A DNA stretch of 45,731 nucleotides from an uncultured Mycoplasmatales bacterium (GTDB lineage Bacteria; Bacillota_I; Bacilli_A; UBA3375): NCBI GenBank assembly GCA_937936465.1, contig CALDDH010000011.1, positions 1-45,731 on the forward strand, written 5' to 3'. Under the pieces are notes generated by a model. That model was not told the origin of the DNA. It did no database searches and worked only from the letters and a program-made list of their open reading frames with translations. The translations under genes and the position numbers were made by a program. Numbering within the stretch: the stretch's first letter is position 1; each line of letters starts with the position of its first letter. Below are positions 43,011 through 45,731 of this stretch, piece after piece.

Positions 43011-43850
43011 TTATTTTTTTTTTCCTTTATTACTATATTGATTTATTTTTTTAACCCAAGATGATCTTACTAGGCTAACTAACTTATGTCTTGTTAATAT
43101 TCTTGGCATAAATACTGATGTTATATAATTCTTTCTACCTGGTACAACATAAATCTTATTACTAACAAATGATTCAATTGCAATTTGAACAACTTCGTCT
43201 GGTGTCATATATCCCTCTGATAAGTTTGTAATATCAGAATTATCTATTTTCTTATCAGAGGCTACATTAGAAAAATTAGTTGCTGTAGCTCCTGGACAAA
43301 GCGTCATAATCTTAGTTGTATCATTTGCATATTCTGAATGAATAGCATCTGTAAAATGCAGTACATATGCTTTAGATGCTGTATAAACTGCTGATCCTCC
43401 AACAGGAACTAAAGCTCCTGTTGAACCTAAATTAATTAGTCCACCATTTTTACTTTTAATAATATCAGGTAAAAATTGATATGTCATTTCTGTTAAACTA
43501 TTAATATTTAAATCATTCATTGATTTATACTTAGCATAATCAACATCTAAAAAGTCATCCCAAATACCAAATCCTGCATTATTAATTAAATAATCTATAG
43601 TTATACTTGACTCACTTAATTGATTATAGATTTCTTGACTAGAACCAATTATACTTAAATCTTTTTCAATAACTGTAATTGTAACTTCAGTAGTTTTTAA
43701 TAAATCAGATTTAATCTCTTCTAATACTTTTTTATTTCTAGCAACTAATATAAGATTAGCTTTTTTCTTTGCTAAAAAGTAAGCAAAACTTTTTCCTATT
43801 CCACTTGATGCACCTGTAATTAAAACATTTTTATTATTAAATATATTCAC
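43011..43850 (-). CDS. Short-chain dehydrogenase/reductase
   Basis: This 279-residue classical SDR has the nucleotide-binding VLITGASSGIGKSFA (about 9-23), the NNAGFGIWDD motif, INLGSTGALVP with the catalytic Ser, and the YTASK active-site Tyr and Lys. LCPGATATNF follows. It resembles the DltE/YqjQ-like group of uncertain substrates; a basic C-terminus (KKINQYSNKGKKK) is extra. The start codon is GTG (43848-43850) with AAGGAG upstream. It is a single gene. Cofactor preference and substrate cannot be read safely. Confidence 0.88.
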   Translation of the reverse strand: MNIFNNKNVLITGASSGIGKSFAYFLAKKKANLILVARNKKVLEEIKSDLLKTTEVTITVIEKDLSIIGSSQEIYNQLSESSITIDYLINNAGFGIWDDFLDVDYAKYKSMNDLNINSLTEMTYQFLPDIIKSKNGGLINLGSTGALVPVGGSAVYTASKAYVLHFTDAIHSEYANDTTKIMTLCPGATATNFSNVASDKKIDNSDITNLSEGYMTPDEVVQIAIESFVSNKIYVVPGRKNYITSVFMPRILTRHKLVSLVRSSWVKKINQYSNKGKKK

Positions 43851-43860
43851 TATTCTCCTT

Positions 43861-44236
43861 AAGTGTATAAACTATTAATTATACAATATTATATATTTTA
43901 ACACAAATACAATTAGATTAATAGGTATACACATTTAAAAGTTATTCATTAGGAGTATGCACTCTAAAAAAAAAAAAATATATATATATATATACTATAT
44001 ATCTCAACTGAAATATTTGTATAAAATATAAGTCGCAGTTGAAACTCTATGTTGTTATCAATTAACCGATCAATGCATTTGGTTTATTAACATAGAAAGT
44101 AAATTCATTACTATTTTAGCTTATTAAATTAATAGGTCTGGACTATTCAACATAGAAGAACTCCTGATTGCATCTCTGTAACCCAACTCTAGGTCTGTAT
44201 AATGTATATATTTTAAATTGCCTAAATACTAGATTC
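43861..44236. other. Gene-free stretch with simple repeats
   Basis: It contains A13 followed by (TA)8 (43966-43994), an inverted repeat CAACTG...CAGTTG (about 44006-44041), and three irregularly spaced AACATAGA-like words (about 44050-44160). No frame is open beyond short lengths and no RNA gene was recognised. This part of the window looks like degraded accessory DNA. Confidence 0.4.
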
Positions 44237-44405
44237 TTACAAATTGATAGTTACATTTTGATAATAGTATCTTTCATCATCAAAATTATATTCAACTTGC
44301 CATTTGATTAAATATAATATTATTAACATTAATTTCACATGCAATCAAACTTAATGGCATAACGATTATCAATAGTGTTAGCATCATTAAGATATTTTTA
44401 TTCAT
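44237..44405 (-). pseudogene. Frameshifted small lipoprotein gene
   Basis: The ATG at 44403-44405, preceded by GAAAGG, opens a lipoprotein-like signal peptide MNKNILMMLTLLIIVMPLS followed by LIAC (cysteine 23). The frame stops at 44292. In the next frame the sequence continues WQVEYNFDDERYYYQNVTIN to a stop at 44237. One base change would join them into about 56 residues. Decay is likely, and it may itself be only the N-terminal part of a longer gene. Confidence 0.45.
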
Positions 44406-44423
44406 TACCTTTCAAATCTCATG

Positions 44424-44539
44424 CTAACAAAACATAGTTTGCGTATAATACTTCTTATTTAACTTCTTAAGCCTTAACTGTTCATTAAGTAACTGAATCT
44501 ATTGATCAAGCAACTTAAATAATAAGCCAATTTCTTTTA
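44424..44539 (-). pseudogene. Degraded 3' end of a type I restriction S-subunit gene (copy A)
   Basis: Minus-strand reading gives EIGLLFKLLDQ, an in-frame TAG, then IQLLNEQLRLKKLNKKYYTQ and TMFC. This matches the fragment at 45590-45731 (IGLLFKSLDEEIELLNEQLR) at about nine in ten bases over 115. The EQQKIG...LD..IELL pattern is the C-terminal coiled region of HsdS. The two copies are direct repeats flanking the Abi-like gene. Confidence 0.65.
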
Positions 44540-44666
44540 ATGATAAATAATTATTTATTTTATCTTAACTAACAATAGCTACATTTCCTACTTCTATTAT
44601 CTATTTTTTAAAAAAAATTCTGGTTTTTAAAAATTTTAATTTTTTTTTATTATTATAACAGAGAAA

Positions 44667-44700
44667 AAGTAAAGCCACTTATGACTTTACTTCTTTTTAT
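44667..44700. terminator. Terminator downstream of the Abi-like gene
   Basis: AAGTAAAG (44667-44674) pairs with CTTTACTT (44685-44692). On the minus strand the stem runs into a T-run (TTTTTCTC), about 65 bases beyond the Abi-like stop; on the plus strand CTTTTTAT follows. Confidence 0.65.
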
Positions 44701-44756
44701 CTCTCTTAGTATGTTTAAATGATAACATAACTTGTGGCACAAGTCAAGTATGTTCA

Positions 44757-45524
44757 TTAATCATTAATCTGAGTATGTTTATTGTATAAATCATATGATT
44801 TTTTATATAATAAATAATTTATATTTTCTTTTTTCTCCAAATTAAATTTATCTATTTTTTTTATAACATTTGTTGTTTCATGATACTCTTTATTTGTTAA
44901 TCTATTTAAGTGCATTTGTATTGTATCACCATGTGATATAGAATTTCTTAAAGTTCTAATTGTATGATAATATTCAAAAAATAAATTAATTTCTTTTTCT
45001 TTAAATTTAAAAATATTTATAAAGTTTTTCAATTGAACAATTGAAAATTTATTTATTGTTAAATAAAAAGATTTATCATTCATACTAAATTCTTTTAAGA
45101 TTGATTTTAAATATTCACTATATTTATTTCCTTTATTACGCTTAATTATATAAGAAATTTTATTTATTATATATTCGTTACCTTGCTCTATTGCTACTAT
45201 TTGTTCATTCTTTAATTCATCTGATAAAAGGTTTATCGTTAAACTTTTTAATAGTTTTTCAAATTGATAAATTATTTCTCTTATGATTATAGTTTGTTCA
45301 ATATCTTCATCATATAACTTTTTATACTCAATTACATTTTTTTCATGATTATATATATGCTTTCCCAAAAAATCTGTTCCTTTATGAAAAAAATGTTTAT
45401 ATGGTGTTATTAAATTAACATATCCAATTGAAAATAATATATTTTGTTCAGATTCATTAACTATACACTTTTTATTTTCATATAAATATCTAATTATTTC
45501 TTCCCTATTTTTAATTATTTTCAA
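44757..45524 (-). CDS. Abi-like protein with an RNxxxH (HEPN-type) motif
   Basis: The preferred start is TTG at 45522-45524, five bases after AAAAGGGG, giving 255 residues. The ATG at 45542 has no ribosome-binding site and lies almost on the predicted RNA start. The protein is mainly helical and lysine-rich. TPYKHFFHKG near the N-terminus and TIRTLRNSISHGDTI near residue 210 recall the AbiD/AbiF (Abi_2) family, in which RNxxxH is a HEPN-type ribonuclease motif used in abortive infection. Similarity is by motif and overall layout only. It has its own -10 (45550-45555) and terminator and is flanked by direct repeats of an hsdS 3' end. Confidence 0.6.
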   Translation of the reverse strand: MKIIKNREEIIRYLYENKKCIVNESEQNILFSIGYVNLITPYKHFFHKGTDFLGKHIYNHEKNVIEYKKLYDEDIEQTIIIREIIYQFEKLLKSLTINLLSDELKNEQIVAIEQGNEYIINKISYIIKRNKGNKYSEYLKSILKEFSMNDKSFYLTINKFSIVQLKNFINIFKFKEKEINLFFEYYHTIRTLRNSISHGDTIQMHLNRLTNKEYHETTNVIKKIDKFNLEKKENINYLLYKKSYDLYNKHTQIND

Positions 45525-45549
45525 TAAGACCCCTTTTTTCATTTATTTT

Positions 45550-45555
45550 ATTATA
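45550..45555 (-). promoter_or_regulatory. -10 box of the Abi-like gene
   Basis: TATAAT on the minus strand, just after the hsdS stop codon. The predicted RNA start near 45543 leaves a leader of about 19 bases carrying AAAAGGGG before the TTG start. Confidence 0.45.
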
Positions 45556-45589
45556 TTTTTTTATATTTAATTAATGTATAAAAGTAATT

Positions 45590-45731
45590 TTAACAAAACA
45601 TAGTTTGCATATAATACTTCTTATTTAACTGCTTAAGCCTTAACTGTTCATTAAGTAGCTCAATCTCTTCATCAAGTGACTTAAACAATAAACCAATCTT
45701 TTGTTGTTCTTCAAGTATTGGAAATTTTATT
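45590..45731 (-). CDS. hsdS: Type I restriction enzyme S subunit, C-terminal end (partial)
   Basis: The last 47 codons of a gene that enters from the right edge. They read IKFPILEEQQKIGLLFKSLD, then EEIELLNEQLRLKQLNKKYY and MQTMFC. The PxLEEQQKIG...LD..I.LL pattern marks the C-terminal conserved coiled coil of HsdS, the DNA-recognition subunit that joins HsdM and HsdR. The frame is intact as far as visible. A degraded copy of the same end is at 44424-44539. Confidence 0.8.
   Translation of the reverse strand, partial: IKFPILEEQQKIGLLFKSLDEEIELLNEQLRLKQLNKKYYMQTMFC

Follow-up and report, generated by a model that had tools for sequence, protein, structure and literature searches.

PrrC and RloC are anticodon nucleases linked to type I restriction-modification (R-M) systems. 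The Cas13 nucleases are thought to derive from the AbiD/AbiF group of HEPN proteins, and AbiD1 is controlled at translation. AbiF of Clostridioides difficile, from prophage phi027, is toxic via its R and H residues and is held by an RNA antitoxin; in its dimer model, the RNase site lies where the two subunits meet, and abiF/abi_2 genes adjoin defense genes (PMC12373285). As for the type I R-M genes, duplicated hsd clusters have been reported for Mycoplasma hominis, a member of the Mollicutes (PMC2751442), and Staphylococcus aureus carries multiple hsdMS copies, whose conserved hsdS regions, among them the 3' end (CR3), undergo recombination that can invert half of the chromosome (PMC6778178).

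Here, we analyzed a window that corresponds to a whole contig (C11, 45,731 nt) of a 25-contig, 987-kb assembly from a Bacilli bacterium with a small genome, in which an ORF for an HEPN protein lies between two hsdS 3' ends near the end of the contig. Since the window is the entire contig, the hsdS gene found there is truncated by the contig end and not by the window.

An AbiD/AbiF-like HEPN gene behind hsdS

Starting at its ATG, the ORF (44757-45542, minus strand) runs through 261 codons without interruption. An alternative TTG start at 45524 is probably the better one, because AAAAAAGGGG stands 5 nt upstream of it, and the overall length is 254 to 261 codons. Residues 199 to 204 read RNSISH, a HEPN motif of the form R-(N/H/D)-x3-H, located toward the C terminus of the domain and in register with Abi_2 proteins (RNSISHG codons at 44928-44948, minus strand; R199, N200, and H204). 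When the window protein was aligned with 18 Abi_2 relatives, Y41, E95, R199, N200, and H204 were invariant in 19/19 sequences.

Homology along the Abi_2 domain was detected using hhalign against 32 Abi_2 proteins (probability 97.1%, E 7.5e-11, residues 7 to 211), compared to probabilities of at most 1.6% for 30 shuffles, and a custom Abi_2 HMM recovered the window protein at 2.3e-9, with the next ORF of the window at 0.02. A relative found among 100 related genomes shared about 34 to 35% identity over 104 to 106 aa (BLASTP E 3e-9) and is itself Abi_2 by Pfam (E 3.8e-34), as is a second match, a protein of 273 aa (E 2.8e-11). The Pfam search of the window protein, however, returned HEPN_RiboL-PSP alone (E 0.24), with no match to Abi_2 (PF07751) at E values up to 10. 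The NCBIfam and PADLOC models did not detect it either, including the PADLOC AbiD model PDLC02344, which matches 17/19 members but not the window protein. As the protein lies below the PF07751 cutoff, we refer to it as a divergent relative rather than a member of the Pfam family. No close relative was found in the viral, plasmid, phage, or genome collections (tblastn for plasmids and phages, scans of viral and genome contigs).

A structural model was then obtained with AF2 on the 19-sequence alignment (pLDDT 74.6, pTM 0.66), replacing a single-sequence model that was useless (pLDDT 36.5). The top PDB match in Foldseek was 8vz6_A, "PbAbiF dimer bound to ncRNA", with a probability of 0.99 (others ≤0.13), an E value of 0.062, and TM scores of 0.45/0.40; the Abi_2 family profile finds this chain at 1.6e-58. 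The match to an AbiF-type HEPN fold is moderate and is partly dependent on the input, since the folding alignment included Abi_2 proteins. Based on the hhalign result, the invariant residues, and the AF2/Foldseek match to PbAbiF, we conclude that the ORF encodes a divergent AbiD/AbiF (Abi_2) HEPN protein that stays under the cutoffs of the curated models. What the initial annotation had called an Abi-like HEPN gene with an RNxxxH motif is therefore backed by homology, motif, and fold, and can be specified as AbiD/AbiF-like.

The gene is on the same strand as the intact hsdS and 47 nt behind it. Neither a structured leader nor an abiF RNA motif was found in the AT-rich gap between the hsdS stop codon and the ATG (45543-45589, minus strand), and a search for the motif (RF03085) gave no hit in 43850-45731, the same search also being silent at 20 bona fide Abi_2 loci. 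A 55-nt leader match to contig C5 fell within an unrelated gene and was discarded as chance similarity in AT-rich DNA. The gene had initially been credited with a promoter and a terminator of its own. Downstream, a terminator hairpin was found on the minus strand (44695-44664), with one site compared to 0.1 expected in shuffles and a z score of -2.98 for the region. The promoter claim is not supported, because promoter-like sites were at chance level (20 found, 21.7 expected). The GC content of the ORF was 17.7%, compared to 22 to 32% in the 14 other genes of the window and 26.8% in hsdS, which suggests foreign acquisition, although small AT-rich genomes can also drift.

hsdS 3' ends at the locus and elsewhere in the genome

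The ORF is bracketed by a direct repeat (44401-44536 and 45567-45702) with 83% identity over 136 nt and a start-to-start spacing of 1166 nt. In the hsdS part of the repeat, identity was 89.5% over 114 nt (150 bits, E 6e-39; ≤31.9 bits in 20 shuffled windows), in agreement with the original description of two hsdS 3' ends of about 115 bases, about 90% alike, on either side of the HEPN gene. The right copy is an intact hsdS 3' end (45590-45731, minus strand; stop TAA, seen as TTA at 45590-45592) truncated where the contig stops, and it reads open to ...LDEEIELLNEQLRLKQLNKKYYMQTMFC, a C terminus typical of HsdS, before the stop codon. The left copy (44424-44538, minus strand; stop TAG at 44424-44426) is a relic, as judged from an internal in-frame TAG and a 1-nt indel. 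Both copies align with the final part of the 396-aa HsdS encoded on contig C16 (92% and 88%). The hsdS 3' end pattern was absent from the viral contigs searched. Past the relic lies a degenerate intergenic stretch (43851-44423, minus strand) with no ORF of 60 aa or more. It opens with a truncated lipoprotein-like frame (44330-44415, minus strand), which has a Shine-Dalgarno sequence and a lipoprotein-like start (MNKNILMMLTLLIIVMPLSLIACEINVNN...) and soon meets stop codons. This frame is a remnant of a gene formerly behind the decayed hsdS copy.

The initial annotation had proposed looking for hsdM, hsdR, and other S genes beyond this contig, and such genes were found on other contigs. Contig C6 carries hsdR (923 aa) and hsdM (504 aa) together, with no hsdS beside them in the 0.9 kb inspected before the contig end. 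On C16, dnaA (named by eye) is followed by a complete hsdS, that for the 396-aa HsdS (Methylase_S E 1e-41), and the last 141 bases of this contig are those with which C13 begins; a DUF1304 gene follows there. C21 terminates in 324 nt that share 94% identity with the leader of the hsdS on C16, so a further hsdS probably follows there. Finally, the last 141 bases of C11 (45591-45731) are identical to the last 141 of C12, with divergence at base 142. Behind this shared hsdS end, C12 carries a gene for a 433-aa AbiH protein (Pfam E 1.8e-16; L020:8546-9847), directly adjoining both the hsdS 3' end and dnaN, and then dnaN, a small S4-domain-like ORF, recF, gyrB, and gyrA (all but AbiH named by eye). 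This abiH gene, directly upstream of dnaN, sits beside the replication origin. With hsdRM lacking S on C6, copies or ends on C16, C11, and C12, and a leader on C21, hsdS is a dispersed gene here, and the genome has a type I R-M system whose S genes lie apart from hsdRM.

Several other features were noted on these and further contigs. Probable type I toxin-antitoxin modules lie beside the hsd pieces of C16 (L021:6500-6700), C21 (L157:7235-7450), and C6 (L023:9999-10220), and a decayed copy is found on C18. In the C16 and C6 modules, a sigma-70 promoter (12/12) leads into a short RNA that folds into a stable hairpin (z about -3 to -4) and faces a hydrophobic ORF of 20 to 22 aa on the opposite strand; the ORF reads MIMLGLIIILILLLLIIVAIKS on C16 and C21, and MIFIILVMILLLLLIVAIKH, behind AGGAGG, on C6. 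The comparison case is symE/symR beside hsdS in E. coli. This pair has been described previously (PMC1891008). On C22 (L024:1599-7693), a second methylase (624 aa) is paired with an S subunit (343 aa); a conjugative coupling protein (T4SS-DNA_transf E 1.4e-46) is encoded next to them, and the locus is probably on an integrative conjugative element. C25 (L174, 14760 nt) is circular, with a 141-nt self-overlap, and represents an invertebrate mitochondrial genome using code 5 (COX1, COX2, COX3, CYTB, ND1, ND4, and ND5 by eye, ND4 also by Pfam). It is contamination of the bin and hints at an animal-associated bacterium.

Possible rearrangement at the repeats and lack of conservation of the hsdS-Abi pairing

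The repeats around the HEPN gene may be places of rearrangement in the genome. In the initial annotation, the locus was taken for a defense cassette inserted by duplication next to hsdS and removable by recombination. The presence of a defense gene adjoining hsdS stands, and Abi-type genes follow 2/3 of the live hsdS 3' ends in the genome. Insertion by duplication was not established, because the repeats belong to a dispersed hsdS family and the left one survives as a mere relic; nor was removal by recombination. As a removable cassette, the HEPN gene plus one hsdS end would form a 1.17-kb unit that entered at an hsdS 3' end and could exit via the repeats. The spacing of the repeats fits such a unit, all four hsdS 3' ends visible in the genome are followed by different DNA immediately past the stop codon, and identity between the left relic and the right copy is about 96% over the final 55 nt of the relic, compared to about 82% in the preceding stretch (counted by eye), which could reflect recent exchange. 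However, the left site is decayed by a stop codon and an indel, which leaves no pair of intact sites, the ORFs in the last 5 kb of the contig include no integrase, transposase, or other recombinase, and 115 nt with mismatches make a poor substrate for homologous recombination. We consider a removable cassette unlikely. It is also unlikely, if slightly less so, that dispersed hsdS copies recombine with each other, so that the same S gene precedes either the HEPN gene or abiH-dnaN, varying between cells. The shared terminal 141-mer of C11 and C12, which split at the stop codon, points in this direction, as does the order dnaA, hsdS, C13 on C16, while dnaN on C12 lies behind a different hsdS end; dnaA and dnaN are usually neighbors. 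The recombination of hsdS conserved regions in S. aureus, 3' end included, provides a precedent. On the other hand, a shared stretch of exactly 141 bases recurs at about nine other contig-end pairs, so this is presumably the overlap length of the assembler and such ends mark repeats; a plain collapsed repeat suffices. The shared ends are compatible with a mixed population or with two hsdS copies collapsed by the assembler, and the k=141 overlap was dropped as proof of rearrangement. An extension of this idea, which we regard as unlikely, is that hsdS 3' ends are exchange points for defense genes, at which the same S gene is joined alternatively to the AbiF-like RNase or to AbiH near dnaN and the origin, and a change in specificity would also swap the Abi gene and rearrange the origin region.

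The position of the gene directly behind hsdS, on the same strand and at a distance of 47 nt, could also suggest a functional module in which the Abi protein monitors hsd and fires when restriction is blocked, like PrrC for EcoprrI. Conservation of the pairing speaks against this. Among 56 genomes of the phylum with Abi_2 genes, 32 of which carry hsdS as well, no Abi_2 gene was found less than 12 kb from an hsdS match; the nearest pair was about 12.6 kb apart (genome G293; listings compared by eye), and a conserved hsdS-Abi_2 module was rejected. The protein furthermore lacks the ATPase domain of PrrC, and its gene differs from hsdS in GC content (17.7 versus 26.8%), making a functional module highly improbable. 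One further genome represents the family (G001, contig C194, L112:3-2471); there, a 690-aa GmrSD-like gene comes behind an hsdS end with which the contig starts. Given this GmrSD-type gene and the lack of any close Abi_2-hsdS pair, the link looks like general defense-gene clustering. The pairing of the Abi_2 gene with hsdS is local, and the layout is that of an ordinary defense-gene neighborhood. The same arrangement fixed in distant relatives without hsd genes, which had been named at the outset as counterevidence, was not seen, the phylum sample being free of Abi_2 genes near hsdS. Finally, the ORF could be nonfunctional and in decay within AT-rich intergenic DNA, considering the relics adjoining it (44424-44538 and 43851-44423), its very low GC content, and its lack of close relatives. 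Against this, the reading frame is intact over 254 to 261 codons, retains all five invariant Abi_2 residues, and has a good Shine-Dalgarno sequence and a terminator, and we find decay very unlikely.

Proposed function and relation to known systems

The best explanation, which we consider likely, is that the ORF encodes an acquired AbiF-like abortive-infection RNase in an hsd-associated defense neighborhood. The protein is small and mostly helical; its N-terminal part holds the Abi_2 block, and the HEPN RNase motif lies toward the C terminus. By homology, it most likely acts in the manner of AbiF, as a dimer in which paired RNxxxH motifs form the RNase site; this site would be held inactive in healthy cells, and phage infection would lead to RNA cutting and a growth stop, so that RNase activity, toxicity, and trigger are all predicted. 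Its control may run through an RNA antitoxin, at the level of translation as for AbiD1, or by another route. A horizontal origin is likewise predicted: at 17.7% GC, the gene was probably gained from elsewhere and settled directly behind a dispersed "orphan" hsdS copy. The flanking repeats are hsdS 3' ends, from a current copy on one side and a decayed copy on the other, and delimit no mobile cassette; any recombination history read from them is putative.

The window protein extends the AbiD/AbiF HEPN group by a distant branch that is missed by current family models, and the locus illustrates how, in a reduced genome, Abi genes come to stand behind dispersed copies of hsdS. If it were true that hsdS ends swap neighbors, a reshuffling of restriction specificity would also reshuffle abortive infection.

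Compared to AbiF/AbiD (Abi_2, PF07751; C. difficile phi027 AbiF and PbAbiF, 8vz6), the window protein has the N-terminal Y..N/I..Y/FK block, the conserved E, the C-terminal RNxxxH, and the predicted fold in common. It is, however, shorter (254 to 261 versus about 300 aa), lacks the C-terminal MGFP motif of most relatives, escapes Pfam and PADLOC detection, and has no RNA antitoxin motif found upstream. The AbiH protein (PF14253) on C12 belongs to an unrelated family, although both Abi genes are immediately behind an identical hsdS 3' end. With PrrC/RloC, the common feature is an HEPN-type RNase beside hsd genes, but the window protein has no ATPase part and belongs to another HEPN family, and its linkage is not conserved in relatives. 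The duplicated hsd clusters of M. hominis and the hsdMS copies of S. aureus resemble the present genome in having several hsdS genes, some of them apart from hsdR, with conserved ends that may recombine, whereas here the copies are located in the dnaA/dnaN region and beside Abi genes.
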